Assembly: GCA_018700895.1 (NCBI GenBank)
Contig: JABIUV010000030.1
Location: 1-36,334, forward strand
DNA length: 36,334 nucleotides
Origin: Bacteroidota bacterium
GTDB taxonomy: Bacteria > Bacteroidota > Bacteroidia > NS11-12g > UBA9320
Direction: 5' to 3'
The notes below the pieces were generated by a model. The model was not told the DNA's origin. It ran no database searches and saw only the letters and a program-made list of their open reading frames with translations. The position numbers and the translations under genes are program-made. Shown piece after piece: positions 12,265-27,815 of the stretch; the stretch's first letter is position 1; the number at the start of each line of letters is the position of its first letter.

Positions 12265-12298
12265 AAGACAAACCATTCATGCGAGTATGGGTATACAA

Positions 12299-12330
12299 AA
12301 AAGACGCACCTCAATTGAAGTGCGTCTTTT
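12299..12330. terminator. bidirectional rho-independent terminator
   Basis: Arms AAAAGACGCAC (12299-12309) and GTGCGTCTTTT (12320-12330) around a 10-nt loop CTCAATTGAA, with A-tract before and T-tract after. It sits between the converging FAD oxidoreductase and acyl-CoA dehydrogenase genes and can serve both. Confidence 0.88.
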
Positions 12331-12387
12331 GATTGACTTAGAATCTAATTCTAATGCTTAATGGGGGTTCATTTAGCTATTAGCCAA

Positions 12388-13530
12388 TTATCCTTTTAAA
12401 ATATTACGTGAAATCACAATACGCTGTACCTCACTTGTTCCCTCGTATATCTGTGTGATTTTAGCATCTCGCATCATACGCTCTACATGGTACTCTTTTA
12501 CAAATCCATACCCACCGTGTATCTGCACTGCTTCGGTAGCAACCCACATGGCAGTCTCAGATGCATATAATTTGGCCATACACGCCGCTTGAAGAAAATC
12601 TTCACCTGCATCTTTTAGTGCCGCTGCTTTCAAACAGAACAGTCTAGAGGCCTCTATACGCGTTGCCATATCTGCCAATTTGAATTGGATGATCTGGTGG
12701 TTCATTATCTCCGTACCAAATGCTTTACGCTCCTTGGCATATTGTAACGATCGCTCATAAGCCCCACTAGCTATTCCCAATGCCTGAGCAGCTATCCCAA
12801 TACGACCACCACTAAGCACCCGCATCGCAAACTTGAAACCAAATCCATCTTCTCCTATCCTATTGGCCTTAGGCACCTTCACATCCTGAAACATCAGTGA
12901 GTGAGTGTCAGAACCTCTAATACCCAGTTTATCTTCTTTTTTACCTACCACAAAACCTTCCATATCCGAAGTTACAATGAGGCAGTTTATCCCTCTATGT
13001 TCTTTGTCTACATCGGTTTGAGCCATTACAAGGAAGGTATCACCCGTTTGTCCATTGGTAATCCAGTTTTTGGTGCCATTTAGTAGGTAGTGGTCTCCCA
13101 TATCTACGGCAGTAGTTTTCTGACTCGTAGCATCACTGCCCGCTTCTGGCTCACTTAGGCAAAAACCACCGTGTATCTTTCCGCTTGCTAATGGTCTTAG
13201 GAACTTTTCTTTTTGCTCCTCAGTACCATATTTTTCTAAGCCCCAGCACACCAAAGAGTTGTTTACGCTCATCACGACACTCGCACTAGCATCTACCTTA
13301 CTTATTTCTTCCATAGCAAGCACGTAGCTAATGGTATCCATTCCGCTTCCGCCGTACTTAGGGTCTACCATCATTCCCATCATACCAAGTTCTCCTAATT
13401 TCTTTATTTGCTCGGCAGGAAACCGTTGTTCATTATCACGGTCTATTACTCCAGGTAGCAATTCTGTCTCTGCAAAATCGCGTGCAGCCTGTTGTATCAT
13501 CAAGTGTTCTTCGGAAAGTTGGAAATTCAT
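12388..13530 (-). CDS. acyl-CoA dehydrogenase (short/branched-chain type)
   Basis: A 380-residue flavoenzyme that introduces the alpha-beta double bond in acyl-CoA and passes electrons to ETF. Signature stretches: GGFCLSEPEAGSDATSQKTT, YLLNGTKNWITNGQTGDTFL, LGIRGSDTHSLMFQDVKVPK, ALGIASGAYERSLQYAKERK, FG then IMNHQIIQFKLADM, and IHGGYGFVKEYHVERMMRDA. The catalytic base is expected at Glu363 in IYEGTSEVQ. Length and the YEGT position fit butyryl-CoA/isovaleryl-CoA-like members; the chain-length preference cannot be read. It stands alone rather than in the fad operon. A TACCTTTG element (complement of 13551-13558) lies 20 nt upstream of the ATG. Confidence 0.93.
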   Translation of the reverse strand: MNFQLSEEHLMIQQAARDFAETELLPGVIDRDNEQRFPAEQIKKLGELGMMGMMVDPKYGGSGMDTISYVLAMEEISKVDASASVVMSVNNSLVCWGLEKYGTEEQKEKFLRPLASGKIHGGFCLSEPEAGSDATSQKTTAVDMGDHYLLNGTKNWITNGQTGDTFLVMAQTDVDKEHRGINCLIVTSDMEGFVVGKKEDKLGIRGSDTHSLMFQDVKVPKANRIGEDGFGFKFAMRVLSGGRIGIAAQALGIASGAYERSLQYAKERKAFGTEIMNHQIIQFKLADMATRIEASRLFCLKAAALKDAGEDFLQAACMAKLYASETAMWVATEAVQIHGGYGFVKEYHVERMMRDAKITQIYEGTSEVQRIVISRNILKG

Positions 13531-13550
13531 ATGCGTAAAAAATATTTGGT

Positions 13551-13558
13551 CAAAGGTA
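13551..13558 (-). promoter_or_regulatory. -7 element of the acyl-CoA dehydrogenase
   Basis: The complement reads TACCTTTG, an exact TAnnTTTG match 20 nt before the ATG. No TTG at the expected upstream distance. Confidence 0.5.
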
Positions 13559-13659
13559 AAACAATAGGCACCTAAACTCGGCGGAGAACAAAGCCTGAAC
13601 GCTTGTTTAGAATGGGCTTAAAATAGAAATACGCGTTTTTAGAGTGAAACTAAATAGTA

Positions 13660-13700
13660 AATCGCTCATAATGCAGCACCTATGGGAGGTATGAGCGATT
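13660..13700. repeat. hairpin between divergent acyl-CoA dehydrogenase and HU genes
   Basis: AATCGCTCAT (13660-13669) pairs perfectly with ATGAGCGATT (13691-13700); inside it ACCT (13678-13681) can pair with AGGT (13687-13690), leaving an 8-nt bulge on one side. No T-tract follows, so it is not an ordinary terminator. Confidence 0.6.
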
Positions 13701-13754
13701 ACCCTCGTTGATAACATCTTAATTACTTTTGGGCAAAAGTAGCTTCAAAACCCT

Positions 13755-13782
13755 TTGTATTCGGGCTTTTGACCCTACTTTG
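13755..13782 (+). promoter_or_regulatory. promoter of the HU gene
   Basis: TTG at 13755-13757, an 18-nt spacer, then TACTTTG at 13776-13782, ending only 8 nt before the ATG. The transcript would be nearly leaderless, in keeping with the lack of a Shine-Dalgarno sequence. Confidence 0.6.
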
Positions 13783-13790
13783 CGAACGTT

Positions 13791-14090
13791 ATGAACAAAA
13801 CAGAATTAATAAACGCAATCAGCAACCAAGCTGGTTTGACAAAAGAAAGTGCAAAAGCAGCTTTAGAAGCAACAATAGGTTCTATACAAGGTGCAGTAGA
13901 AAAAGGTGAGAAAGTATCAATCCCAGGATTTGCTACTTGGTCAGCGACTTATCGTCCGGCTAGAGAAGGTAGAAACCCATCCACTGGTAAAACTATCAAG
14001 ATAGAAGATAGAGTTGCAGTGAAATTCAAAGCGGGCAAAACGTTTGCTGACGCAGTAAACAACCCAGCGTTGAAAAAGCAAATGAAGTAA
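13791..14090 (+). CDS. hup: HU-family DNA-binding protein
   Basis: A 99-residue nucleoid protein of the HU/IHF family. The N-terminal helices (MNKTELINAISNQAGLTKES) form the dimer core, VSIPGFATWSATYRPAREGR contains the turn into the DNA-binding arm, and NPSTGKTIKIEDRVAVKFKA matches the arm and return strand, where Pro after the arm tip normally intercalates DNA. The Lys-rich C-terminus (KKQMK) extends the usual 90 residues a little. It is monocistronic, with a strong promoter and the terminator at 14112-14147, as expected for an abundant protein. Confidence 0.95.
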   Translation: MNKTELINAISNQAGLTKESAKAALEATIGSIQGAVEKGEKVSIPGFATWSATYRPAREGRNPSTGKTIKIEDRVAVKFKAGKTFADAVNNPALKKQMK

Positions 14091-14111
14091 TCATCATTTA
14101 AAATTTAAGGT

Positions 14112-14147
14112 AAATGCTCACGCCACTTGGTGTGAGCATTTTTTTTG
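14112..14147 (+). terminator. rho-independent terminator of hup
   Basis: AATGCTCAC (14113-14121) pairs with GTGAGCATT (14132-14140), the stem continuing inward through CCA/TGG, followed by a run of eight T. It lies 22 nt after the HU stop. Confidence 0.92.
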
Positions 14148-14222
14148 TCTCAGACTCAACATTTGCGTGCGAACTATCTAGGTAAACTAAACCCTACCGC
14201 ATTGGATTCGCTGGACAAAACA

Positions 14223-14903
14223 CTAAATTTTAAAACCAATTCCAAACCTCAACTCCCACATTTTTGGGAATAGACTCACCTGTCTCTCCTTCGTTACTCG
14301 ATCACTAACACCTAATGCCAGATTTTCTATCCGTGATACCACCGAAGTAAAATCAACAACATTCACCACCGTATTTAAATCTAAGAACCACTGGTCATTT
14401 AGGTTATAAGCTACCCTTGGAACTAAGGCAATGGTGGTAGCATAAACCGATTCTCGCGTAGGAAACGAATTAGAAATGACGGGATTTACAGCCACTACAG
14501 ATACTCGTGGAGACACCGCTCCACCTATTCTCAAACTAAAATTATTCTCCTTTTTCAAAACGGGAAGGTTCCCTATAAACTCATAACGCAGACCAAAATC
14601 CATGGTGTTTGTAACAGCTCCTGCCACGGGTAAAGATCCATTACTTGTTTCTACAGTGCTTACCTCATCATTCCGATTGAAGGTGAAATGGGTAAGTGCT
14701 ATTTCCTGAGTGTATGCGTTATTAGAGTACCAACTAAGAGCGGGGGACAAGCTCAGATTGGACCTAACCGTGCTATCAGTCACCGTGCCACTTACGCGAG
14801 AGGATTCTGCGTGTGTGAATTGACTGTATAATTTAAGCGAGACGTTGGTTTGGGCTTGTACACAGCTGGCAAAGCAAAGAAGTGGTACGATGAGATATTT
14901 CAT
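14223..14903 (-). CDS. outer-membrane beta-barrel protein, unknown family
   Basis: A 226-residue exported protein with a signal peptide ending CVQAQ. The mature part alternates hydrophobic and polar residues in strand-length segments (SNLSLSPALSWYSNNAYTQE, NTMDFGLRYEFIG, FSLRIGGAVSPRVSVVAVNP) and ends in an aromatic-rich strand WELRFGIGFKI, as expected for a barrel of about 10-12 strands. Small barrels of this type are common in the Bacteroidota outer membrane; no specific role can be given. It has its own spacer on both sides; the upstream 377 nt are filled with repeats rather than a clear promoter. Confidence 0.6.
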   Translation of the reverse strand: MKYLIVPLLCFASCVQAQTNVSLKLYSQFTHAESSRVSGTVTDSTVRSNLSLSPALSWYSNNAYTQEIALTHFTFNRNDEVSTVETSNGSLPVAGAVTNTMDFGLRYEFIGNLPVLKKENNFSLRIGGAVSPRVSVVAVNPVISNSFPTRESVYATTIALVPRVAYNLNDQWFLDLNTVVNVVDFTSVVSRIENLALGVSDRVTKERQVSLFPKMWELRFGIGFKI

Positions 14904-14962
14904 GATGAACTAATAACGTGGCACATCTGCAAGATAGTATTGGAGAAGCTAACGGACAGTTA

Positions 14963-15123
14963 GGCTAAAGCCAAGATACACTCCTACAACATTTCGGCGG
15001 GCTAAAGCCCACAGAAATGGATTCTGTACATTCCCTATTCACTTTTTCTGTGCTTTAGCTCCGACCAAAAAGTGCTTTAGCTCCGAACAAAAGTGCTGAG
15101 CTACCGATGGCTTTAGCCTCGAC
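14963..15123. repeat. cluster of short palindromic GCTAAAGC repeats
   Basis: GGCTAAAGCC at 14963-14972, GGGCTAAAGCCC at 14999-15010, then TGCTTTAGCTCCGA twice (from 15051 and 15073), a diverged GTGCTGAGCTACCGA (from 15093) and GGCTTTAGCC (15109-15118). The copies with CTCCGAxCAAAA form a short tandem of about 22 nt. They look like worn REP-like hairpins of a family different from that at 4806-5659. Confidence 0.7.
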
Positions 15124-15146
15124 TTAAAAAATCGCTTATAAAAAAA

Positions 15147-15166
15147 GGCGAGTATCCCGACTCGCC
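15147..15166 (-). terminator. rho-independent terminator of the fad operon
   Basis: Stem GGCGAGT (15147-15153) with ACTCGCC (15160-15166), 6-nt loop. On the minus strand the stem is followed by a run of T, 115 nt after the fadE stop. Confidence 0.8.
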
Positions 15167-15280
15167 CTTTTTGTTATTATCATGTGAATTTAAATGAAGC
15201 CGTTCATCCTTCGGTACAAATCATAGTTCAACTATATTTTACTATAATTCACTCAGAATGACAAGCTGCCACTTACTAAG

Positions 15281-17062
15281 TTAAAAACAGTATTTATTCT
15301 CCTTAATCAATGCTTCCGCTACTTGCTTACGAAGCGATATGGTATCCGTCATTGGGTATTTGGTGAATCGCTTCACACCCATATGCATCATCACTAGCAT
15401 ATCATCCTTGGCAAATGCAGCTAAGGCGTGCTTACCGGCTAAGTACGTACGTTCCATAGCATCATTCACATAGCATTTGGTCATGGCTATTTGGTTTATT
15501 GTTGCTTCTTCCCCTTGCTGAGCTATGAGTTTTTCGGTACGTAATACGGTACTTTCGGCGGTAAATACATCTATGGCCATATCCGCAAGATTCATCAGTA
15601 TCTCTTGTTGCTTCTCTAGCTCCATCATATACTTCTGTGCTGCTGCACCTGCTGCCATGAGTATCGCTTTTTTGGCTTGTCGTACGGCCTTTTTTTCTTC
15701 GTATAGTGCACTTCCATCTCCTTCGTCACCAAAGTCTGGAATCTCCATCAACTCTTCCTGTATTTTCATAGCAGGACCCATAAGATCTAGTTCACCTTTC
15801 AATGCTTTTTTCATCAATTGACCTACGGCAAGCATTCTGTTAATCTCGTTGGTGCCCTCAAAAATTCTGTTGATACGTGCATCGCGATACATACTCGCTA
15901 CTGGAAATTCTTCCGAATATCCTGTTCCACCAAAGATCTGTACGGCTTCATCTACTACATAATCCAAAGTTTCTGAACCCAGTATTTTAAGAATAGCACA
16001 TTCTATGCTGTACTCTTCGGCAGCTATGAGTTTTCCTTCTACCTTCGATTTTCCTTCGGCTACGAGTTCTGCTATTTTTTCGGTTATTAATCCTGAAACT
16101 CTGTATGTAGCACTATCAGTAGCATAGGTCTTGATAGCCATTTCAGCTATCTTATGCTGTATAGCTCCAAAACTACTGATGGGCACACCAAACTGGTGAC
16201 GCTCATTGGCATAATTTATCGCTACGTCTATACTTTTCTTACTACCTCCCATTACCATAGCACACAGCTTGTATCTGCCTATGTTGAGCACATTGAAGGC
16301 AATTTTGTGTCCTTTGCCTATCTCACCTAGTAGATTGTCTTTTGGGATACGCACATTGTCCAAAAACACCTGACGGGTACTACTTCCCTTGATACCTAGC
16401 TTTACTTCTTCGTCGCCAAGACTTAGTCCAGGTGTCCCTTTTTCTACCAAAAATCCGGTAAATTTATCGCCATCTACCTGAGCAAATACCGTAAACAAAT
16501 CTGCAAATCCTGCATTGGTAATCCACATTTTAGCTCCGTTTAGCACCCACTCGTCTCCGTCTAATACGGCTTTAGATTTGGCTGCAAGTGCATCACTACC
16601 ACTATCTGGTTCAGTAAGGCAGTACGCAGCTTTTATGGACCCATTGCCTAGTCCTGCTAGGTATTTTTTCTTTTGCTCGTCGGTACCGTAGTATAGGATA
16701 GGTAATGTACCAATACCCATATGGGCAGCGAGTGCCACACTAAAACTTTGGGTTTTCCCCAGCTCTTCGCTGAGCACAGACTCTGTATTGAAATCTACTG
16801 CCATTCCTTCGTACTCCTCTGGTAGAGCAGCTCCTAGTATGCCTAGTTCTGATATTTTCTCCATAAGGTTAGGAATAAGGTCTGGATTCTCAATTTGCTT
16901 ATCTATTTTTTCTCGAAGTGGTTGTACTTCTCTTTCCAAAAAATCACGCGTCATGTCTCTAAACATGCGTTGCTCTTCATTGATTTGCTCTGGAATAAAT
17001 GTGTTTTCTGCTGACTGCTCTTTTACTAAGAACTCGCCTCCTTTTAGGTTGATATTTGACAT
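15281..17062 (-). CDS. fadE: acyl-CoA dehydrogenase with C-terminal helical extension (FadE type)
   Basis: A 593-residue acyl-CoA dehydrogenase, the first step of each beta-oxidation turn. The catalytic core spans about residues 25-420: AAYCLTEPDSGSDALAAKSK, WVLNGAKMWITNAGFADLFT, LGIKGSSTRQVFLDNVRIPK, FGVPISSFGAIQHKIAEMAI, FGGTGYSEEFPVASMYRDAR, and the base Glu in IFEGTNEINRML. About 150 further residues form a helical domain, as in VLCAD-like and Bacillus FadE proteins (Bacillus FadE is also about 594 residues). It is the last gene of the operon, after fadA and the four-helix-bundle gene, and ends at the terminator near 15150. Its start region MSNINLKGGEFLVKEQSAEN is typical of Bacteroidota copies. 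Confidence 0.93.
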   Translation of the reverse strand: MSNINLKGGEFLVKEQSAENTFIPEQINEEQRMFRDMTRDFLEREVQPLREKIDKQIENPDLIPNLMEKISELGILGAALPEEYEGMAVDFNTESVLSEELGKTQSFSVALAAHMGIGTLPILYYGTDEQKKKYLAGLGNGSIKAAYCLTEPDSGSDALAAKSKAVLDGDEWVLNGAKMWITNAGFADLFTVFAQVDGDKFTGFLVEKGTPGLSLGDEEVKLGIKGSSTRQVFLDNVRIPKDNLLGEIGKGHKIAFNVLNIGRYKLCAMVMGGSKKSIDVAINYANERHQFGVPISSFGAIQHKIAEMAIKTYATDSATYRVSGLITEKIAELVAEGKSKVEGKLIAAEEYSIECAILKILGSETLDYVVDEAVQIFGGTGYSEEFPVASMYRDARINRIFEGTNEINRMLAVGQLMKKALKGELDLMGPAMKIQEELMEIPDFGDEGDGSALYEEKKAVRQAKKAILMAAGAAAQKYMMELEKQQEILMNLADMAIDVFTAESTVLRTEKLIAQQGEEATINQIAMTKCYVNDAMERTYLAGKHALAAFAKDDMLVMMHMGVKRFTKYPMTDTISLRKQVAEALIKENKYCF

Positions 17063-17064
17063 TG

Positions 17065-17108
17065 TATAGGATTTAAGATGTATGATATAGGATGTAAGAT
17101 TTAGGACT
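17065..17108. repeat. AT-rich dispersed repeat, copy 1 (fadE / four-helix-bundle junction)
   Basis: TTTAAGATGTATGAT (17072-17086) and TAAGATTTAGGACT (17095-17108) are identical to stretches at 18771-18785 and 18787-18800. The repeat overlaps the end of the four-helix-bundle gene and supplies its stop codon. Confidence 0.75.
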
Positions 17109-17484
17109 GTTTTGATTGATTGTCTAATGTGTTAATGAAACGATAAGCAGAGTTGTCTATCATTACGAGTTGATCGATTAATGTATCTGCTTTTTCTTGT
17201 GATGTAAGGTTTAAGCGAGACGCAACGGTAAGCAATGTAATTACCTCTGCAATGCTGCCTTTGGAAATATAGAGGAACCTAACAAAATCTGCATTAGTAC
17301 CTTTTGCTGAGCCTTCGGCAATGTTTGCAGGAATAGATACACCTGCTCGCTGTATCTGAGAGATTAGACCATACTTTTCATCCGATGGATAGCCAGCTGT
17401 CTCTTTATATAATTCCACTACCAAATCTATGGCATCACTCCATATCTTCAATTTTCTAAAATTATGATTATTCCTATTCTTCAT
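17101..17484 (-). CDS. four-helix-bundle protein (S23 / 23S rRNA intervening-sequence protein family)
   Basis: A 127-residue protein of the TIGR02436 type: FRKLKIWSDAIDLVVELYKE, the hallmark YGLISQIQRAGVSIPANIAE followed by GSAKGTNADFVRFLYISKGS, and a helical tail (EVITLLTVASRLNLTSQEKA). The family was first seen inside intervening sequences of 23S rRNA and includes the Avd accessory protein of retroelements; free copies like this one have no settled function. It interrupts the fadA-fadE order on the same strand and has AT-rich repeats on both sides (17065-17108 and 17511-17570), which suggests it arrived as a small insertion. No reverse transcriptase or rRNA is nearby. Confidence 0.92.
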   Translation of the reverse strand: MKNRNNHNFRKLKIWSDAIDLVVELYKETAGYPSDEKYGLISQIQRAGVSIPANIAEGSAKGTNADFVRFLYISKGSIAEVITLLTVASRLNLTSQEKADTLIDQLVMIDNSAYRFINTLDNQSKQS

Positions 17485-17510
17485 TCTCTATTATGATTTC
17501 TTTAAGTATT

Positions 17511-17570
17511 TATTGATGTAGGATGTAGTTTGCGAACAAAAAGTCCTATACCTTAATCATATATCTTTAT
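17511..17570. repeat. AT-rich dispersed repeat, copies 2 and 2' (four-helix-bundle / fadA junction)
   Basis: TATTGATGTAGGATGTA at 17511-17527 faces an inverted copy at 17541-17570, whose complement reads ATATATGATTAAGG and TATAGGACTT. Related to copies at 17065 and 18771, with more divergence. Confidence 0.6.
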
Positions 17571-17576
17571 AGGTGT

Positions 17577-18758
17577 CTACAGCCGCTCATAAATCGCAGC
17601 AATACCTTGTCCACCGCCGATGCACGCTGTTACCATTCCGTGTTTTTGGTTTCTAAGTTTCATTTCTTCGAGTATTTGTACCGTAAGTTTTGCACCTGTG
17701 CAGCCTAGTGGATGTCCTAAACTAATGGCTCCTCCATTCACGTTTACGATGTCCGGATTGATCTCTAACCCTCTCAATACTGCCAAACTTTGTGAAGCAA
17801 ATGCCTCGTTTAGTTCTATTTGATCGATGTCGTTAAGAGAAAGACCTGCTTTGCTCAATGCTTTGGGTATTGCCTCCATCGGGCCTATGCCCATATAACG
17901 TGGGCTTACCCCTACAGATACTTGACTTACCAGTCTGGCTTTGGGCTCTAGACCGAGGTCTTTTACCATCTGCTCGCTCATTACCAATACAAAACTGGCC
18001 CCATCACTGGTTTGTGAACTGTTGCCCGCAGTTACGCTACCACCATTTTTGAACGCTGGACGAAGTCTGGCCAATGCTTCTATCGTTGTGTCAGCTCTTG
18101 GTCCTTCGTCGGTATCTACTACGTAGCTCGACTTTACTCGTTTATTCGTTTTGGGGTCAAAGTCTACCTGCTCTACCTCAAAAGGCACGATTTGGTTTTT
18201 AAATTTGTTTTCAGCCAAGGCTTTCAGTGCTTTTTGGTGCGAGCCTAGTGCAAATGCGTCTTGATCTTCGCGACTGATATTGTACTTCACAGCTACTTCT
18301 TCTGCTGTAAGTCCCATTCCTATAAAATAGTCTGGATGCTCCGCCGCTATGGTGTAGTTGGGTACGGTCTTATAACCTACCGTAGGCACTAGACTCATAC
18401 TCTCTGTACCGCCTGCTATGATGCAGTCTGCTAAACCTGCTTTTATCTTAGCCACGGCCATAGAGATTGTTTCTATTCCGCTACCGCAATATCTATTTAC
18501 CGATACGCCCGGCACTTCTTGAGGCAACTTACTGCGGACGACTACCCATCTACCCATTTGTAGTCCTTGCTCTGCCTCAGGCACTGCGTTTCCTACTATG
18601 ATGTCTTCTACTACACTTGGGTCAAATCCCGGAGTATTATCTATGATGTGGTCTATTACCGCTGCTCCTAGGTCTACAGGACTGGTAAATCTAAATCCAC
18701 CTCTTCCTGCTTTTCCTACTGCTGTTCTGTATCCGTTAACTATGTATGCTTCTGCCAT
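17577..18758 (-). CDS. fadA: acetyl-CoA C-acyltransferase (3-ketoacyl-CoA thiolase)
   Basis: A 393-residue thiolase, the last step of beta-oxidation, cleaving 3-ketoacyl-CoA with CoA. The nucleophile is Cys91 in SVNRYCGSGIETISMA, the acid/base pair is His349 in GGAISLGHPLGCTGAKL and Cys379 in TACIGGGQGIAAIYERL, and NEAFASQSLAVL is the usual substrate-loop motif. Length equals that of Bacillus FadA (about 391). It lies 94 nt downstream of fadN, the gap holding an inverted AT-rich repeat, and upstream of the four-helix-bundle gene and fadE. Confidence 0.95.
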   Translation of the reverse strand: MAEAYIVNGYRTAVGKAGRGGFRFTSPVDLGAAVIDHIIDNTPGFDPSVVEDIIVGNAVPEAEQGLQMGRWVVVRSKLPQEVPGVSVNRYCGSGIETISMAVAKIKAGLADCIIAGGTESMSLVPTVGYKTVPNYTIAAEHPDYFIGMGLTAEEVAVKYNISREDQDAFALGSHQKALKALAENKFKNQIVPFEVEQVDFDPKTNKRVKSSYVVDTDEGPRADTTIEALARLRPAFKNGGSVTAGNSSQTSDGASFVLVMSEQMVKDLGLEPKARLVSQVSVGVSPRYMGIGPMEAIPKALSKAGLSLNDIDQIELNEAFASQSLAVLRGLEINPDIVNVNGGAISLGHPLGCTGAKLTVQILEEMKLRNQKHGMVTACIGGGQGIAAIYERL

Positions 18759-18770
18759 TTCTTCTAATAA

Positions 18771-18834
18771 TTTAAGATGTATGATTTAAGATTTAGGACT
18801 TATGCTTTATTGATTCTCTTAAATCCTAAATCAT
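18771..18834. repeat. AT-rich dispersed repeat, copies 3 and 3' (fadA / fadN junction), inverted
   Basis: TTTAAGATGTATGATTTAAG and ATTTAGGACT (18771-18800) are followed by an inverted copy at 18817-18834. ATGATTTAAGATTTAGGA (18781-18798) pairs with TCTTAAATCCTAAATCAT with two mismatches. In the transcript this would form a hairpin between fadN and fadA. Confidence 0.75.
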
Positions 18835-18852
18835 GCGTCCTAGGTCAATCTT

Positions 18853-21240
18853 CTAATTTCTCAACGGTTTCCCTGTTTTAAGTATATGTTGTATTCTCTC
18901 CAATGTTTTTCTCTCTCCGAGCAAGCTCAAAAATGCTTCTCGCTCTAAATTTAGCAAGTACTGCTCTGTGACTTTGGTTGGTTGAGTAAGATCTCCTCCC
19001 GCCATTACGTAGGCTAGTTTTCTACCAATGAGCATATCGTGCTCGCTGGCATATGCACTTATACCAAAGGCTTCTACCCCAGAGTAAAGTGCTCCCAATG
19101 CTGTTCTACCCAATACAAGGATATCGTCACGCTGTGGTTTTTGAACATAGCCATTGTTGTGCAACTCTAACACCTTGCGTTTTGCTTCTGACAGTACACG
19201 GTCTCCATTTCCTACTACTTCATCTTTGTCGTGGTGCATTACGCCTATTTCAAACGCCTCGTGTGCAGATGTAGCTACTTTTGCGGTAGCTATAGTCTGA
19301 AAACGCTCGATCAATTTAGGCAACTGGGGATCTCCTGCATAAAAACTATCACTGGTACGGACCACAAATTCTTTGGTACCGCCACCGCCAGGAATAAGTC
19401 CCGCTCCTGCCTCCACAAGCCCAATATAGGTCTCTGCTGAAGCTACTGCGGCATCAGAATGGAGTGTTAATTCGCACCCCCCACCGAGTGTCAAACCACG
19501 TGGTGCCATAACAACAGGAATGCTGCTGTATCTGAGTCGCATTACGGTCTTTTGGAAATATCCAATCACCATATTCAACTCATCAAACTCTTGCTCTATA
19601 GCGAGCATTAGCATCATCGCTAGGTTAGCTCCTGCGGAAAAGTTGGGTGCGTCGTTTCCGATGACCAATCCTTTCCAACCGTCTTTTTCAGCTATGTCTA
19701 TTGCTTTGTTTATGCCTGCAAGTGTTCCACTACCTATCGCATTCATCTTAGAGTGAAACTCCAAACAAAGTACCCCATCACCAATATCGTGGAGCGTAGC
19801 TTCTTTATTTTTGTAAACGGGTTCTGGCGTTCTAAAGTTATCTAGTACTATAAATGTTTCTGTACCAGGTATTACTTCATACTCGCCTTTTGTAATGTTG
19901 TAGTATTTACGCTTTCCGTCTTCTGACTTGTAGAAAGAAGAGTTGCCTTTGGCTTTGAAATCCGTAATCCACTGCGGAATGACATATCCGGCTTTTTCTA
20001 AATTGCTAAGGACTTTATCAAAACCAATTAAATCCCACGTTTCAAACGGACCAACATCCCAACCAAATCCTGCTCGAAGTGCATCATCTATCTGATACAA
20101 TTCATCTGCAATTTCTGGAATTCTATTCGCGGAATATGCTGCTATCGCCGTAATTACATCTTGGTAAAAATCTGCCGCTGCATCTCCGCCGTCGTAGAGT
20201 ATTCCTAGTTTACTGCTTAGTCTATTTGCTTTTCTAGCTTTGCCAATAGAATCATACCGTGCACTTTCCTTTGGCTTGTACTCCATAGTGGCAAGGTCTA
20301 GAGCTTCTATTACTCTATTGCCCTCAGCATCTTTCCCTTTTTTGTAGAATCCTTGCTTGGTCTTATCTCCTAACCAATTGTTCTCCTGCATTTTTTCTAA
20401 GAATGAAGGGATTTCAAACCAATCCTTCATCTCATCTTTCGGGCAATTTTGTCCTACACCGTTGGCTACTTTTACCAAGGTATCTAGTCCTACAAGGTCA
20501 GAGGTACGGAATGTAGCCGACTTTGGTCTACCTGAAACTGGTCCGGTAACGGAGTCTACTGCCTCTATGCTCAAGTTGTGCTTTTGCATCATCTTGAAAA
20601 TTGCCATAATGCTATACACACCTATTCTATTAGCGATAAATGCTGGTGTATCTTTTGCCTTTACGGTTGTTTTCCCAAGGAAAAGGTCTCCATAGTGCAA
20701 GAAGAAATCCACCACTTCTGGTTTGGTTTTCGTTGATGGTATGATCTCTAAAAGCTTGAGGTAACGTGGCGGATTGAAAAAGTGTGTGCCGCAGAAATGT
20801 AAAGCAAAATCTTCACTTCTACCCTGTAGCATCATCTCTATCGGGATACCCGAAGTATTACTAGTAATTAATGTTCCAGGTTTGCGGTATTCTTCTACTT
20901 TATTGAATAGGTCGATCTTGAGGTCTAGACGCTCTATGATTACTTCTATTATCCAATCGCAGTCTTTTATTTTATGAAGGTCATCTTCAAAGTTCCCTGT
21001 TTTTATTCTGTTCGCAAACTTCTTGCTATATATTGGACTTGGGTTGCTTTTTAATGCAGCCTTTAGTGCTCCTGCAGCCACCTGTGCATCCTTCCCTGAC
21101 TTTTTCTCTTCGGAATTAGGGAAGTTCTTGAGATCCAACAAAAGAACATCCAAACCAATATTGGCAAAATGACATGCAATTCGGCTCCCCATTACTCCTG
21201 AGCCTAGTACAGCTACTTTTTTTATATGTCTTGTACTCAT
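18853..21240 (-). CDS. fadN: 3-hydroxyacyl-CoA dehydrogenase / enoyl-CoA hydratase fusion (FadN type)
   Basis: A 795-residue bifunctional enzyme for the hydration and NAD-dependent oxidation steps of beta-oxidation. Order is dehydrogenase first: Rossmann motif VAVLGSGVMGSRIACHFANI, catalytic-type FALHFCGTHFFNPPRYLKLL and TPAFIANRIGVYSIMAIFKM, then two C-terminal HCDH lobes (RAGFGWDVGPFETWDLIGFD). The crotonase domain follows (SAGANLAMMLML, APRGLTLGGGCELTLHSDAA, GLVEAGAGLIPGGGGTKEFV). This order and length match Bacillus FadN (about 789) rather than E. coli FadB, which has hydratase first. The start codon follows the TetR stop codon without a gap, so the regulator and enzyme are translated from one message. 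Confidence 0.95.
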   Translation of the reverse strand: MSTRHIKKVAVLGSGVMGSRIACHFANIGLDVLLLDLKNFPNSEEKKSGKDAQVAAGALKAALKSNPSPIYSKKFANRIKTGNFEDDLHKIKDCDWIIEVIIERLDLKIDLFNKVEEYRKPGTLITSNTSGIPIEMMLQGRSEDFALHFCGTHFFNPPRYLKLLEIIPSTKTKPEVVDFFLHYGDLFLGKTTVKAKDTPAFIANRIGVYSIMAIFKMMQKHNLSIEAVDSVTGPVSGRPKSATFRTSDLVGLDTLVKVANGVGQNCPKDEMKDWFEIPSFLEKMQENNWLGDKTKQGFYKKGKDAEGNRVIEALDLATMEYKPKESARYDSIGKARKANRLSSKLGILYDGGDAAADFYQDVITAIAAYSANRIPEIADELYQIDDALRAGFGWDVGPFETWDLIGFDKVLSNLEKAGYVIPQWITDFKAKGNSSFYKSEDGKRKYYNITKGEYEVIPGTETFIVLDNFRTPEPVYKNKEATLHDIGDGVLCLEFHSKMNAIGSGTLAGINKAIDIAEKDGWKGLVIGNDAPNFSAGANLAMMLMLAIEQEFDELNMVIGYFQKTVMRLRYSSIPVVMAPRGLTLGGGCELTLHSDAAVASAETYIGLVEAGAGLIPGGGGTKEFVVRTSDSFYAGDPQLPKLIERFQTIATAKVATSAHEAFEIGVMHHDKDEVVGNGDRVLSEAKRKVLELHNNGYVQKPQRDDILVLGRTALGALYSGVEAFGISAYASEHDMLIGRKLAYVMAGGDLTQPTKVTEQYLLNLEREAFLSLLGERKTLERIQHILKTGKPLRN

Positions 21241-21825
21241 CTAATTTACTACGTTTTGTGTTTCTAATTTTTTAAATTCAGCAAGCATTTTGCTATTTGT
21301 TCTACTTAAAAATGTGGGATCTTCTAAGAGTTTCATAAGTATCACCGAGCCCTCTATTTCAGCTACCACAATTTCAGCCTTTACCTTTGCTTCTTCCTTA
21401 TCCATTACAGCAGAAAAAATACTGTGCATTGCTTTTAACCATTCAGCAAAAAACTCTTGAATCACCACAGTGAAAGCAGGAACGGTGTTTTTTGTTTCAA
21501 GTCCAATATTTACGAAAAAATCTCCGCCCTCTTCAAACATAAAGACTTCTTCTGCCTTCTTTGCCAATAACGCAAGCCTGTCATAAGCAGAAAGCTTGAC
21601 ATCATAAGCGATGACAAAAATTCTTTTAGTGTAATGCTCCTTTAACGATTGTAGCACTTCTAGCATCAACGCTTCTTTACTTTCTATGTAGTGATAAAAA
21701 CTGCCCTTCAAAAGACCATTTGCAGATGCTAAATCTTGCATGGACGTTCCATTATACCCCTTGGTTTTAAAAACCGAGAGTGAATTTTGGATAAGCGTTT
21801 TTCTATCTAACTTAGGTTTTGCCAC
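21241..21825 (-). CDS. TetR/AcrR-family regulator of the fad operon (GTG start proposed)
   Basis: A 194-residue TetR repressor. The N-terminal HTH reads LIQNSLSVFKTKGYNGTSMQ, DLASANGLLKGSFYHYIESK and EALMLEVLQSL; the C-terminal helical half (FFVNIGLETKNTVPAFTVVI and onwards) is the ligand/dimer domain. An in-frame ATG at 21858 would add 11 residues, but a strong promoter (21840-21869) lies across that stretch, with its -7 element inside it, so translation from GTG at 21825 (V/M-AKPKLDRKTL) fits better. It is the first gene of the operon and directly abuts fadN. By analogy with Bacillus FadR it would release DNA on binding long-chain acyl-CoA; this is inference. Confidence 0.85.
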   Translation of the reverse strand: MAKPKLDRKTLIQNSLSVFKTKGYNGTSMQDLASANGLLKGSFYHYIESKEALMLEVLQSLKEHYTKRIFVIAYDVKLSAYDRLALLAKKAEEVFMFEEGGDFFVNIGLETKNTVPAFTVVIQEFFAEWLKAMHSIFSAVMDKEEAKVKAEIVVAEIEGSVILMKLLEDPTFLSRTNSKMLAEFKKLETQNVVN

Positions 21826-21839
21826 TGTGCTTGTGTGCA

Positions 21840-21869
21840 CAAAGTTACGAAAAAGCATGTCATAAACAA
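21840..21869 (-). promoter_or_regulatory. promoter of the tetR-fadN-fadA-fadE operon
   Basis: On the minus strand TTG (complement of 21867-21869), a 19-nt spacer, and TAACTTTG (complement of 21840-21847): a full match to the Bacteroidota promoter. Its expected start of transcription is about 21833, just before the GTG at 21825. Confidence 0.75.
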
Positions 21870-21878
21870 ACGGTTGGT
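21866..21878. promoter_or_regulatory. candidate TetR operator
   Basis: ACAAACGGTTGGT is an inverted repeat of form ACnAACnGTTnGT, five of six pairs matching around a central G. It overlaps the -33 TTG of the operon promoter, the usual place for autorepression. The target protein is inferred from position only. Confidence 0.5.
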
Positions 21879-21965
21879 AGATTAAAAGTGTGCATTCTTA
21901 CAATCATCAAAATCACAGATCCTTCGCGGCCATTTTAGTAAGTAGTTTTTTTAACGCAACTTCCA

Positions 21966-21973
21966 TACTTTTG
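21966..21973 (+). promoter_or_regulatory. -7 element of metK
   Basis: TACTTTTG, an exact TAnnTTTG match, 22 nt before the metK ATG. The leader is too short for a SAM riboswitch. Confidence 0.55.
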
Positions 21974-21995
21974 CACTCCTTAAAAATTCGAACAT

Positions 21996-23255
21996 ATGGC
22001 ATATTATTTTACATCAGAATCAGTATCAGAAGGACATCCAGATAAGGTAGCAGATCAAATATCTGACGCACTTATAGATCATTTTTTGGCCTTTGACCCA
22101 AGTAGCAAAGTAGCTTGCGAAACACTCGTAACTACTGGACAAGTCGTTCTGGCTGGGGAGGTGAAAAGCAGTACATATCTTGATGTGCAAAAAATAGCTC
22201 GTGAAACCATCAACAAAATAGGTTACACCAAAGGCGAATATATGTTTGACGGGAATTCGTGTGGTGTGCTTAGTGCCATACACGAGCAAAGTCCAGACAT
22301 AAACCAAGGTGTAGAACGCAGCAATCCAGAAGACCAAGGAGCTGGAGACCAAGGCATGATGTTTGGCTATGCAACCAACGAAACGGAAAGCTACATGCCT
22401 CTTCCATTGGAATTGAGCCATATGCTACTCAAAGAGCTAGCTGAGCTCAGAAGGGAAAATAATGAGATAACCTACCTAAGACCAGATAGCAAATCACAAG
22501 TGACCATCAAATATGATGACAACAATAAACCGATTGCTATAGACGCCATTGTAGTATCTACTCAGCACGATGATTTTGACAACGAAGAGGCGATGCTTGC
22601 CAAAATAAAAGCTGATTTAATCAATATTCTAGTACCAAGAGTGAAGAAACTATTGCCTGCTGAGACGCAAGCATTGTTTACAGACGATATAACCTACCAC
22701 GTAAACCCAACAGGCATTTTCGTAATAGGTGGCCCACACGGCGACACAGGTCTTACAGGAAGAAAAATAATAGTAGATACTTACGGAGGTAAAGGTGCTC
22801 ACGGTGGTGGTGCTTTCTCAGGAAAAGACCCGAGTAAAGTAGACCGCAGTGCTGCTTATGCAACACGCCATATCGCAAAAAACCTAGTTGCTGCCGGCAT
22901 ATGTGACGAAGCACTGGTGCAAGTAGCATATGCTATAGGTGTAGCTGAGCCAATGGGTCTATATGTTAATACCTACGGAACGTCTAAAGTAGATAAGACT
23001 GACGGTGAAATTGCCGAGATCCTAATGGGTATGGACAAGTTTGATATGCGTCCTTACTTCATCGAGCAACGCTTCAATTTACGTAGTCCCATATATTCAG
23101 AATCTGCAGCATATGGCCATATGGGTCGTAAGACAGAGACCGTAACCAAAACATTTGTAGATGGTGGCGGAAAGTCGATTACTATAGATGTAAAACTTTT
23201 CCCTTGGGAAGAGCTAAATGGTGTAGCAGACCTAAAAGCCAAATTTGGACTCTAA
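21996..23255 (+). CDS. metK: S-adenosylmethionine synthetase
   Basis: A 419-residue MetK, which makes SAM from methionine and ATP. Motifs: [20 protein letters not shown] (ATP-binding His), [16 protein letters not shown] (adenosine loop), [20 protein letters not shown] (phosphate loop), and [20 protein letters not shown], all intact. Length fits Bacteroidota copies, which are longer than the 384 residues of E. coli by an insertion in the middle (around residues 150-215). glmS follows after 54 nt on the same strand with no strong promoter between, so the two may share a transcript. Confidence 0.97.
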
Positions 23256-23309
23256 AAACTCCCTCCAATTGAAAACGACTAATATTGTAACTTAAAGACA
23301 GAAAAAATT

Positions 23310-25154
23310 ATGTGTGGAATTGTAGCCTACTACGGACCAAACCAAGCGTATGACTTCTTAATAAAAGGACTACAGCGACTAGAATATCGCGGATATGACA
23401 GTGCAGGAATTGCACTGCTAGACGATAAACTTAATATCTATAAGAATAAAGGAAAAGTGTCTGACCTACAAGCTGTTGCCGAAGGTGAAAACCTAAACGG
23501 GAATAGGGGCATGGGCCACACAAGATGGGCGACTCACGGCGAACCCAATACCGTTAATGCACATCCTCACTTATCACAAAGTGGAGATATGGCTCTAATT
23601 CATAATGGAATCATAGAAAACTACGCAACTATTAAGAAAGTTCTTGAGGAAAGAGGTCACGAGTTCAAAAGTGATACAGATACAGAAGTACTTACGCACC
23701 TCATAGAGGAAATCAAAGAAAAAGAACAAGTAGACTTGCTAGAAGCGGTGCGTTTGGCGCTCAATGAAGTGATAGGTGCATACGCTATAGTTGTATTAAG
23801 TAATAATGACCCCAATACACTAATAGCTGCTCGTAAAGGGAGTCCGCTTGTGGTAGGAATAGGCGATACTCCTGGCGAATTTTTCTTAGCAAGCGATGCT
23901 ACTCCTATTGTAGAATATACCAAAACGGTTACCTACCTTGATGACAATGAAATAGTAGCTATACAAGATGGCGAAATGACCATCAAGACCATAGACAATG
24001 TTAAAAAATCACCGTTCATACAAGAACTCGAGATTAGCATAGATGCTCTGGAAAAAGGTGGTTATGAGCACTTCATGCTCAAAGAAATTTTTGAGCAGCC
24101 AAAGTCTATCTATGACTCTATGCGAGGAAGGTTCGACCCTCAAAACCTCACCTTCGCAATGCGTAGCTTGGAGGAATACGAGAGTAAGATCAAAAATCTG
24201 GATCGAATCATCATCGTAGCCTGCGGTACATCGTGGCATGCTGGCTTGGTAGGCGAATACTTGATAGAAGAATTCGGGAGAATACCTGTAGAGGTCGAAT
24301 ACGCATCAGAGTTTAGGTACCGAAATCCGATAATCACAGAAGATGATTTGGTAATTGCTATATCCCAAAGTGGAGAAACAGCAGACACCCTAGCAGCTCT
24401 AGAAATGGCCAAGGAAAAAGGTGCTACCATATATGGAATATGTAACGTAGTAGGAAGCAGCATACCTCGTATCACGCACGCTGGTGCATATACGCACGCT
24501 GGTCCTGAGATAGGAGTTGCGTCCACTAAGGCATTTACTGCTCAAGTAACAGTGCTTACTCTGCTTGCTCTCGGCATTGCCGACATACGAGGCAAGATAG
24601 CTCGAGAAAGACTGAGAGAAATGTTTGCAGAGCTCAATACCATACCACAAAAAGTAGAACAACTGCTCGCAAGCTGTAACGATAAGTGTAAAGAAATAGC
24701 TGCTAAATATAAAGATGCTCCAAACTGCCTATACTTAGGTAGAGGATATAATTTCCCTGTGGCCCTAGAAGGAGCACTAAAGCTAAAAGAAATTTCGTAC
24801 ATACACGCAGAAGGGTATCCTGCTGCTGAGATGAAACACGGGCCTATTGCCCTTATAGACGAAGAAATGCCAATAGTAGTGATTGCGACTAAACGCAATT
24901 ACTATGAAAAAGTAGTTTCTAATATTCAAGAAGTAAAGGCTCGTAAGGGTAAGATCATAGCTATTGTAACAGAAGGTGATGAGAAAGTAGCAGAGATAGC
25001 GGACCATTACATCGAAATACCAGATACCGAAGATGCACTTACACCACTACTCGCGACTATTCCACTTCAACTCCTATCATACTACATAGCGGTAATGAGG
25101 GGATGTAACGTAGACCAACCGAGAAACCTTGCAAAATCCGTAACTGTGGAATAG
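23310..25154 (+). CDS. glmS: glutamine--fructose-6-phosphate aminotransferase (isomerising)
   Basis: A 614-residue GlmS, making glucosamine-6-phosphate for peptidoglycan and LPS. The class II glutaminase domain begins with the N-terminal nucleophile in MCGIVAYYGPNQAYDFL and has GHTRWATHGEPN and HNGIIENY. Two SIS domains follow (VACGTSWHAGLVGEYL, ISQSGETADTLAALEMA, STKAFTAQV; EGYPAAEMKHGPIALID). The C-terminus NVDQPRNLAKSVTVE is the universally conserved tail. There is no glmS ribozyme in the 54-nt gap. The last 78 nt overlap, antisense, with the response-regulator gene. Confidence 0.97.
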   Translation: MCGIVAYYGPNQAYDFLIKGLQRLEYRGYDSAGIALLDDKLNIYKNKGKVSDLQAVAEGENLNGNRGMGHTRWATHGEPNTVNAHPHLSQSGDMALIHNGIIENYATIKKVLEERGHEFKSDTDTEVLTHLIEEIKEKEQVDLLEAVRLALNEVIGAYAIVVLSNNDPNTLIAARKGSPLVVGIGDTPGEFFLASDATPIVEYTKTVTYLDDNEIVAIQDGEMTIKTIDNVKKSPFIQELEISIDALEKGGYEHFMLKEIFEQPKSIYDSMRGRFDPQNLTFAMRSLEEYESKIKNLDRIIIVACGTSWHAGLVGEYLIEEFGRIPVEVEYASEFRYRNPIITEDDLVIAISQSGETADTLAALEMAKEKGATIYGICNVVGSSIPRITHAGAYTHAGPEIGVASTKAFTAQVTVLTLLALGIADIRGKIARERLREMFAELNTIPQKVEQLLASCNDKCKEIAAKYKDAPNCLYLGRGYNFPVALEGALKLKEISYIHAEGYPAAEMKHGPIALIDEEMPIVVIATKRNYYEKVVSNIQEVKARKGKIIAIVTEGDEKVAEIADHYIEIPDTEDALTPLLATIPLQLLSYYIAVMRGCNVDQPRNLAKSVTVE

Positions 25155-25499
25155 GCGGGGCTTGGTAACATAGTCGATTACTAGACCATTTGCTTCTGCT
25201 CTTTGCATATCCTCTGGATTGACGGAAGAACTTAACATGTAAATATGGACATTCTTCGTTTTCTCCTTAGGAAGGTCCTTGAATAATTCTATAAAGTCCC
25301 ATCGACCTATGACAGGCATATTAATATCTAACAGCAAAGCGTTGGGCAAATCATCATAATCTCCGGATTTTACAAACTCAAACGCCTCCTCACCATCACT
25401 GAATATGGACACCTTAATGGCCAGTTTCAACTTCTGAAATCTCACCCGAGTCGTAAATTGAAATATCTCGTCGTCATCTATAATAACTACATGCTTCAT
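25077..25499 (-). CDS. single-domain response regulator (REC), tail antisense to glmS
   Basis: A 140-residue receiver domain without an output domain. The acidic pocket (Asp8-Asp9 in VVIIDDDEIF), the phosphorylation site Asp58 in LLLDINMPV, the Ser pair in YMLSSSVNPEDMQRAE and Lys113 in DYVTKP are all present, so the fold is intact up to that point. The usual Asn-Gly after the phosphosite (MNGW) is replaced by IGRW. From residue 116 on, where helix 5 should be, the frame is antisense to the last 26 codons of glmS and reads like no REC domain. It is coupled by an ATGA overlap to the small frame upstream. Similar Bacteroidota REC proteins relay phosphate from hybrid kinases; no kinase is adjacent. 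Confidence 0.7.
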   Translation of the reverse strand: MKHVVIIDDDEIFQFTTRVRFQKLKLAIKVSIFSDGEEAFEFVKSGDYDDLPNALLLDINMPVIGRWDFIELFKDLPKEKTKNVHIYMLSSSVNPEDMQRAEANGLVIDYVTKPRLFHSYGFCKVSRLVYVTSPHYRYVV

Positions 25500-25693
25500 T
25501 TTACGTTCAGGCTATTTTTTGTTAAAAAGAATTCACCATTATAAAACATTTCAATTTTGTGTACAGCCACATTAATCCAATAATTCTTAATAATAAGAAA
25601 TTCTGTTTGGACATTAATTTTCTGTGATTGATGATTACTGGATATAAGATAAGGGATGAGACTATCACATAAAGTATAATAAACCTTGCTCAA
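25496..25693 (-). CDS. small hypothetical protein upstream of the response regulator
   Basis: A 65-residue frame (starts MSKVYYTLCDSLIPYLIS, ends FFLTKNSLNVK) that overlaps the response-regulator ATG in an ATGA at 25496-25499. The overlap is the main reason to accept it. Composition is AT-driven (Ile, Asn, Lys, Tyr, Phe) and I know no relatives; it could also be the worn 3' end of a sensor gene. Confidence 0.35.
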   Translation of the reverse strand: MSKVYYTLCDSLIPYLISSNHQSQKINVQTEFLIIKNYWINVAVHKIEMFYNGEFFLTKNSLNVK

Positions 25694-25763
25694 TAGTTCT
25701 TTTCTTACTTCATAAATTTAGACCTAAACTTGCAAAACGATTGTTTCATCTATTTCGAATATA

Positions 25764-27815
25764 ATGCACATTAAAAAATCAGTATACGAAGATGCCTTGA
25801 AAGATATGCTTACTGCTAGAGCCATGGCTGTTATATATGATGAGCATAGGGGGATAACAAGTTACGTGCACTCTACATCAAAAGGGCATGAGGCTATACA
25901 GCTAGCAACCGCATACCATCTCAAAGAAATAGACTGGGTCGCTCCATACTATAGAGATGAGTCTTTATTACTTGGCATAGGTATGAGTCCTTATGAGCTT
26001 ATGTTACAGCTATTAGCTAAAAAAGACGACCCATTTTCAGGAGGTAGAACATACTATGCTCATCCATCATTATTACAAGAAGATAAACCTAAAATAGCAC
26101 ATCAAAGCAGTGCCACGGGTATGCAAGCTATACCAACCACAGGCATAGCTCACGGCCTGCAATACCTTAAAGAAAACAAACTAAACGAAGTAGGTACTAA
26201 CGGCTCCATGGTAGTATGCTCCATAGGGGATGGATCTATGACCGAGGGCGAAGTGTCCGAAGCTCTACAAATGGCTGTTTTGCATCAATTACCTATCTTA
26301 TACCTGGTACAAGATAATGACTGGGGTATCTCCGCAAGTGGTGAGGAGATGCGAGCTATGAACGCATATGAATTTGCAGCAGGTTTCAAGGGACTACGAA
26401 GAGGAAGAGTAGATGGAAGCAACTTTACGGAAAGTTATAGCGAGGTAGGCAAAGCAGTGAAGTGGGTTCGTAAGAATCAAAAACCTATGCTACTTCACGC
26501 TAAGGTTCCACTGTTAGGTCATCATACTAGCGGAGTGCGAAGTGAGTGGTACCGTGACGATCTAGAAGAAGATAAAAAAGAAGACCCGCTACCTATTCTC
26601 ATAGAACAAGCTCTAAAAAAGGGGATAAAGCAAGCAAAAATAGCCCAATGGAACGAAGAAGCTATAGCCCGTGTGGCTGATGCTTTTGCCCGAGCCAAAG
26701 CTGCCGAATCACCTGAGCTTCACACTGTGACAAATTTTGTTCTTGCGGAGACACCCATCAACAAAGAACAGGGTGAAAGAAGCCCAGCAAAAGGTGAGAA
26801 AATTATTATGGTAGATGCAGCTCTGCACGCCGTAGATGAGATATTAGCAGATCATCCTGAGGCTTTGCTTTATGGTCAAGACGTGGGACACAGACTAGGT
26901 GGTGTATTTCGCGAAGCGGCTACTCTCGCCCAAAAACACGGAAGACATCGTGTGTTCAACACACCAATACAAGAAGCATATATTATAGGCTCTACCGCTG
27001 GAATGAGTGCCGTGGGGTGCAAACCTATTGTGGAGGTTCAATTTGCAGATTACATATGGCCTGGCGTAAATCAGCTTGTAACAGAGCTCAGTAAAAGTAG
27101 CTATCTAAGTGGAGGCAAATTTCCTGTACAAAGCGTTATACGTGTGCCAACTGGAGCATACGGAGGTGGAGGCCCATACCACAGCGGGACCAATGAGAGT
27201 AGTATTTTACCTATCAAAGGAATAAAAATTGTGTACCCAAGCAACGCTGCCGATATGAAAGGGCTGATGAAAGCCGCTTTTTATGACCCCAATCCTGTTG
27301 TAATGTTTGAGCATAAAGGTATATACTGGAGCAAAGTGCCGGGTACCGAAGGAGCTAAATCAATAGAACCTTCCAAAGACTACATTATTCCGCTAGGCAA
27401 AGCAAGGATACACTTACAGACAAGTGAAGAACACTTAGAAAACGGAGAAACACTGAGTATCATCACCTACGGAATGGGTGTATGGTGGGCTACAGCTGCA
27501 GCTAAAAATTTCGAAGGACAAATAGAAATTATCGACCTCAGAACTCTCAGCCCCTGCGATGATGAAGCCATATACGACAGTGTACAACGCCATGGGAAAG
27601 TTATTGTACTCACAGAAGAGACCATCAACAATTCGTTTGCTCAAGCCCTAGCCGGTAGAATTCAAGAACATTGCTTTCAGTCACTTGACGCACCTGTGAA
27701 ATGCATAGGCTCGCTTGATGTGCCTGCTGTACCGCTCAACGTAGAACTAGAGAAGGAAATGCTACCGAATGCCGAAAAGGTAAGTCAAGCCATCAGCGAT
27801 TTATTGCACTACTAA
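25764..27815 (+). CDS. 2-oxo acid dehydrogenase E1, alpha and beta subunits fused
   Basis: A 683-residue thiamine-diphosphate enzyme, the decarboxylating E1 of a 2-oxo acid dehydrogenase complex. The alpha part (about 1-320) has HSTSKGHEAIQLATAYHLKE, WVAPYYRDESLLLGIGMSPY and the ThDP motif GDGSMTEGEVSEALQMAVLH with the closing Asn in YLVQDNDWGIS. The beta part (from about 350) has LLYGQDVGHRLGGVFREA, PIQEAYIIGSTAGMSAVG, VEVQFADYIWPGVNQLV and RVPTGAYGGGGPYHSG. The HxxxxEAIQ and YYRD patterns favour branched-chain oxo-acid E1 over pyruvate E1. E2 and E3 are not in the window. A -7-like TAAACTTG lies at 25725-25732. The next gene starts 6 nt downstream. Confidence 0.92.
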   Translation: MHIKKSVYEDALKDMLTARAMAVIYDEHRGITSYVHSTSKGHEAIQLATAYHLKEIDWVAPYYRDESLLLGIGMSPYELMLQLLAKKDDPFSGGRTYYAHPSLLQEDKPKIAHQSSATGMQAIPTTGIAHGLQYLKENKLNEVGTNGSMVVCSIGDGSMTEGEVSEALQMAVLHQLPILYLVQDNDWGISASGEEMRAMNAYEFAAGFKGLRRGRVDGSNFTESYSEVGKAVKWVRKNQKPMLLHAKVPLLGHHTSGVRSEWYRDDLEEDKKEDPLPILIEQALKKGIKQAKIAQWNEEAIARVADAFARAKAAESPELHTVTNFVLAETPINKEQGERSPAKGEKIIMVDAALHAVDEILADHPEALLYGQDVGHRLGGVFREAATLAQKHGRHRVFNTPIQEAYIIGSTAGMSAVGCKPIVEVQFADYIWPGVNQLVTELSKSSYLSGGKFPVQSVIRVPTGAYGGGGPYHSGTNESSILPIKGIKIVYPSNAADMKGLMKAAFYDPNPVVMFEHKGIYWSKVPGTEGAKSIEPSKDYIIPLGKARIHLQTSEEHLENGETLSIITYGMGVWWATAAAKNFEGQIEIIDLRTLSPCDDEAIYDSVQRHGKVIVLTEETINNSFAQALAGRIQEHCFQSLDAPVKCIGSLDVPAVPLNVELEKEMLPNAEKVSQAISDLLHY

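Follow-up and report, generated by a model that had tools for sequence, protein, structure and literature searches.

Genes of the locus and kinship of the regulator

We analysed a stretch of 36,334 bases from a Bacteroidota bacterium (the window), whose minus strand carries a gene for a TetR-type regulator followed by genes of beta-oxidation. The tetR gene (21241..21825, 194 aa) ends with TAG at 21243-21241 and fadN (18853..21240), encoding a 3-hydroxyacyl-CoA dehydrogenase / enoyl-CoA hydratase, begins with ATG at 21240. There is no gap between them, and the sequence-only reading that preceded this work was right to describe the repressor as the first gene, abutting fadN. After 94 nt (18759-18852) follows fadA, a thiolase (acetyl-CoA acyltransferase; 17577..18758), then after 92 nt (17485-17576) a gene for a protein of the 23S rRNA-intervening-sequence type (IVP; PF05635; 17101..17484) and, after 38 nt (17063-17100), fadE (15281..17062), an acyl-CoA dehydrogenase scoring 787 bits against the NCBIfam model of Bacillus-type FadE (cut-off 600). 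A terminator-like hairpin at 15147..15166 is the probable end of the operon; the terminator scan listed it on the plus strand, and the minus-strand sequence also has a T run.

The 94- and 92-nt gaps leave room for further promoters, though a search of the operon's gaps gave no TTG combined with a -7 box close to the consensus. The same gaps hold iterated ATCYTAHAT-like repeats, which are concentrated there (7 of the 8 matches in the window); at one related locus (L194) a similar-looking gene lies between fadN and fadA and is free of such repeats. No RNA family was detected in 12000-26000. On the other side of tetR lies the divergent metK, whose probable -7 box, TACTTTTG (21966..21973, plus strand), is accompanied by no good -33 box and falls outside the switch described below; in some relatives about 1 kb separates metK from tetR. 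Between metK and tetR there is also a 17-codon minus-strand frame, MEVALKKLLTKMAAKDL, at about 21902-21955, preceded by AAGGAG, which looks like chance.

The regulator matches PF00440 with 41.2 bits (cut-off 24) and PF21993 with 32.6 bits (cut-off 27), the C-terminal domain being of the LmrA/YxaF type. Its AlphaFold model is all helical (pLDDT 91.9), and TetR structures in general match the fold: the Z-scores (VIA-align) of FasR (18.8), the R. sphaeroides TetR 3bru (17.9), AibR (16.7) and FadR (15.9) do not stand out from those of TetR structures at large, and the fold leaves the ligand unsettled. FadR, FasR and AibR are binders of acyl-CoA. We take 3bru to be AcuR. AibR (isovaleryl-CoA) and FasR (C20-CoA), both with solved structures, have the fold in common with the window TetR and differ from it in identity (14-17%), in the genes that accompany them and in taxa. 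The curated model of Bacillus FadR (NF053878) gives 23.2 bits against a cut-off of 200; AcuR (NF051457), the best of 16 models, gives 58.8 against 247. Judged by these scores, the regulator is a member of neither curated family.

From the neighbouring genes, and from a fold common to TetRs of many ligands, we infer an acyl-CoA as the inducer. A different ligand has to be considered, namely that TetR acts on its own promoter and senses an acyl compound that is not long-chain, either short or unsaturated, as AcuR senses acrylate, with the operon serving the catabolism of that compound. Indeed, AcuR is the nearest NCBIfam model, above that of Bacillus FadR, and 3bru is among the fold matches. The R. 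sphaeroides operon acuR-acuI-dddL, with its leaderless message, is also the nearest characterised analogue of the operon in the window. According to the available parts of PMC3017554, acuR too stands first in its operon, which is autorepressed and leaderless, its operator lies over the promoter, and the autorepression is relieved by a catabolic compound, acrylate. The same parts of that paper describe a different promoter type, an ATG exactly at the end of the message, acrylate/DMSP genes, and an operator of the form TAATAGAC-n6-GTCTATTA, whereas the site in the window is TACCAACCGTTTGTTT. Furthermore, the genes downstream of the window tetR encode general beta-oxidation enzymes and not acuI or dddL, and FadE exceeds the Bacillus-type cut-off. 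In our opinion such a ligand is rather unlikely, and we continue with an acyl-CoA of beta-oxidation as the probable inducer.

Promoter and operator

Read on the minus strand from 21879 downwards, the DNA is TACCAACCGTTTGTTTATGACATGCTTTTTCGTAACTTTGTGCACACAAGCACAGTGGCAAAACC and contains TTTG-N19-TAACTTTG. The -33 box TTTG (21867..21870) is thus followed after 19 nt by the -7 box TAACTTTG (21840..21847), an exact match to the sigma-A promoter of Bacteroidota (TTTG near -33, TAnnTTTG at -7) as given in the accessible sections of PMC7366714 and PMC9723704. It is the single match to TTTG-N17..23-TAnnTTTG in the window. About half a promoter of the N19/20 form is expected by chance (0.48 per window in first-order Markov sequences; 1 seen), and the whole genome has 112 matches to the N17-21 pattern against 75 for a control pattern. 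Taken alone, the promoter match is within chance. A generic sigma-70 scan was uninformative, with 16 promoters found and 14.7 expected. The inverted repeat noticed earlier, ACAAACGGTTGGT at 21866-21878 (plus strand), has arms that match at 5 of 6 positions; the window holds 182 similar 13-mers, and taken alone the repeat is meaningless. It is because of their conservation in relatives that we judge both promoter and repeat to be real.

The 13-bp repeat is part of a 16-bp site on the minus strand, TACCAACCGTTTGTTT at 21864..21879, which is a form of TACCAA-N4-TTGGTA with a degenerate right half (TTGTTT for TTGGTA). We regard it as the probable operator. The TTTG at 21870-21867 lies within its right half, in agreement with the earlier statement that the inverted repeat overlaps the -33 element.

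Relatives were collected at two distances. Among 38 family genomes, TetR is followed by fadN in 25 loci, to which a contig ending inside tetR (L027) is added; in 12 of the 37 other family genomes, some of them incomplete, TetR had no strong match. Of the 226 relatives found on scanning 84,980 named species genomes, 80 were kept; judged by record titles they come mostly from Bacteroidota MAGs (Bacteroidia, Chitinophagales, Saprospirales), with Emticicia and some labelled Proteobacteria. In 60 of these 80 named loci fadN lies downstream of tetR; the other 20 have no fadN in the available sequence, and some of the contigs end first. The 26 family and 80 wider loci represent 81 distinct upstream regions after removal of duplicates.

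Conservation of the inverted repeat upstream of tetR-fadN had been set as a test beforehand, and it was found: the operator is present (at least 15 bits in the 150 nt upstream) in 76 of the 81 distinct loci, a count that is partly circular for distant loci, since 57 of their sites trained the position weight matrix. The five loci under 15 bits are L122, L139 (13.3), L145, L150 (13.7) and L152, and in L122 a site stands at about -166, beyond the scanned 150 nt. The strongest single test is the score of the window site itself, because the window's genus was absent from training: the 57 training sites each belong to a TetR less than 50% identical to that of the window, and the matrix built from them gives 22.31 bits at 21864-21879, the next best site in the window reaching 9.96.

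In most of these loci a promoter accompanies the operator, which encloses its -33 box. A perfect TAnnTTTG occurs 17-22 nt after the operator's NTTG in 37 of the 76 operator loci, compared with a mean of 0.2 and a maximum of 2 in 200 mononucleotide shuffles, which preserve base content and not dinucleotides; with at least 5 of 6 positions matching, the count is 58 of 76 (shuffles: mean 4.0, maximum 12).

Someone could argue that the conserved bases are nothing but the -33 region of the promoter, that there is no operator, and that the palindrome arose by chance. The window palindrome is indeed weak, with 5 of 8 pairs matched (the window contains 926 16-mers of this kind), and the -33 box makes up half of it. 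However, one would expect no promoter element upstream of the -33 box, and yet the left half, TACCAA, which lies there, has been retained in almost every locus. Three loci with a Proteobacteria label (L148, L156, L158) have kept the operator and show no TAnnTTTG box. The operator is also unseen in the loci read of six family genomes whose fadN is without the TetR. In these (G031-G035 and G037, with FadN 67-70% identical and no strong TetR match) fadN comes after fadE, and the loci read, which reach upstream as far as fadE, hold no site of at least 15 bits, the best (14.5) being inside coding sequence. The remaining six of the family genomes that lack a strong match to TetR have either no FadN match (five) or one of only 33% (G021). 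We consider a promoter without an operator very improbable. An activating role of TetR is to our mind very improbable too, because the operator covers the -33 box, and a site over the -33 box is a position typical of repressors.

A repressor binding this operator is thus the reading we keep, and the operator appears to go with the regulator. In six loci (L110, L113, L140, L153, L154, L157) it precedes more distant TetR genes, and the next forward frame encodes a transketolase-type, DinB or HPP membrane protein. Since the operator precedes other genes in several loci, it marks the TetR group and not fatty-acid genes as such.

By the spacing of their half-sites, the 76 sites divide into a 16-bp form (22 sites), a 20-bp form (39 + 14, for the two orientations) and 1 of another kind; L008 and L011 were sorted as 20-bp and look like 16-bp sites whose right half has decayed. 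Most relatives have TACCAA-N8-TTGGTA, and most of the distant ones show TACCAAACAAACGTTTGGTA. TACCAA-N4-TTGGTA belongs to the window's genus, whose 16-bp form has ATCTACCAA, and to a few others. A CG-centred 16-mer is common to both forms, so either it is the real core or the spacing of the dimer has changed.

The autoregulation proposed earlier is supported by the conservation of the operator in front of the gene for the regulator itself, the single convincing target in this genome. WWMCAANCGNTTGKWW has one match in the 2.4-Mb genome, and this is the tetR promoter. TACCAANCGNTTGGTA has 15 matches when 2 or fewer mismatches are allowed (control: 10); 13 of these sites were rejected as targets, since open frames of 100 codons or more contain them, and one other is the tetR promoter itself. 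We found no second convincing target in this genome, and no site in the window other than 21864-21879 exceeds 10 bits, which leaves metK and a second acyl-CoA dehydrogenase (12388-13530) without one. The fifteenth site (C42:40013, L043), operator-like with 15.5 bits, falls between frames and precedes, by about 150 nt, a response regulator called NtrC-like by eye from its first residues. Further sites in relatives were rejected as well: all 25 that were read (13 + 12, among the matches listed) overlap an open frame. Perfect or near-perfect look-alikes of the operator occur in L064-L071, L181 and L182 within one conserved coding gene, presumably nadC-like and with codons for TKRLVD, a trap for motif scans. 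Overall, TetR looks like a local single-target repressor and not a global FadR.

Start of tetR and its leader

It had been proposed from the sequence that a full promoter lies across the first codons of the longest TetR frame, and that translation probably begins at GTG 21825. Both parts held. The -7 box covers codons 4-7 of the frame that begins at ATG 21858. The GTG at 21825 is in frame with that ATG, and since the promoter is inside the longest frame, the ATG is ruled out as a start on a message from this promoter and the GTG is possible. Comparison with relatives places the start at the GTG: all 26 family loci have a start codon there or within 3 codons, and their TetR N-termini are mostly ATGGCAAAACC. 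Translation from ATG 21858 by way of a promoter further upstream, with the in-frame promoter arising by chance, would fit the longest frame and the chance expectation given above, and is hardly believable given that the position of the promoter is conserved, that the starts of relatives cluster at the position of GTG 21825, and that the 26 family loci show no conserved equivalent of the 11 extra residues and no conservation as protein upstream of the start.

We thus keep GTG 21825, and the leader of the message would be very short. In F. psychrophilum the TAnnTTTG box is located at -12 to -5, as stated in the available text of PMC9723704, and on this basis we expect the message to start near 21835 (21834..21836, minus strand), with a leader of about 10 nt (9-11 nt). 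Over 59 loci the predicted leader, measured to the nearest start codon, has a median of 12 nt. It falls below 10 nt in 25 of the 59, among them L022 and L023, whose values (-3) are wrong, since a 3-codon frame was picked; the leader of 102 nt in L117 is probably also due to a wrong start. In several relatives, L009, L100 and L106 among them, the message is predicted to begin at the A of the ATG itself, a leader of 0 nt. The accessible sections of PMC9723704 and PMC7366714 give median leaders of 24 nt for F. psychrophilum and 32 nt for B. thetaiotaomicron, with about 3.7% below 10 nt.

The case of acuR suggests what such a start could do. In the available parts of PMC3017554, acuR reaches about 7.5% of the translation of acuI, and expression fell, without being abolished, when the start was GTG. 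By analogy, the GTG start and the short leader of the window tetR may hold the repressor low relative to the enzyme.

The proposed switch and what it means

Put together, we believe, with a probability of roughly 85%, that tetR-fadN-fadA-(IVP)-fadE is an autorepressed beta-oxidation operon. The switch is of an ordinary kind, with a textbook mechanism, in a little-studied bacterial group. When there is no inducer, a TetR dimer would sit on the operator, cover the -33 box and keep RNA polymerase off the promoter. When a fatty-acyl-CoA or an intermediate of beta-oxidation rises, it would bind TetR and the dimer would leave the operator; one message, beginning at about 21835 and ending at the hairpin near 15150, would then span tetR, fadN, fadA, the IVP-type gene and fadE, and tetR would be translated from the GTG behind its short leader. 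Because tetR would be translated from the same message as the fad genes, the repressor would be made whenever the enzymes are made, and once the substrate is spent, repression would return.

The wiring was earlier contrasted with that of Bacillus, where fadR and fadNAE are apart. That much is correct, and B. subtilis FadR, like the window TetR, is a TetR-type regulator in a beta-oxidation operon, with the same kinds of enzymes, FadN, FadA and FadE, in its system. The Bacillus FadR system comprises several operons, compared with the one found here, and its operator probably differs from that of the window. The contrast goes too far, however, in one respect: fadR of B. subtilis is itself within a beta-oxidation operon, lcfA-fadRB-etfBA, according to the available parts of PMC6529636. 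In B. subtilis, too, the repressor therefore shares a transcript with beta-oxidation enzymes, and only the partner genes differ.

A literature search of open-licence papers returned no title on the control of fatty-acid degradation by a TetR regulator in Bacteroidetes/Bacteroidota. We would only tentatively suggest that this is a fatty-acid repressor with a single target, not described before, widespread in Bacteroidota and made from near-leaderless messages, whose dimer has been re-spaced (N8 vs N4) without a change of half-site. The natural operators with two spacings form a set for testing how far a TetR dimer tolerates re-spacing. A mis-set tetR start would add 11 residues to the protein and hide the promoter within the gene, and this start is now corrected. 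Further, the operator is a concrete and searchable signature for such a switch. It appears that a DNA site over a shared start signal has been kept in many relatives, by means of which the repressor would silence its own gene along with the fat-degrading genes that follow.
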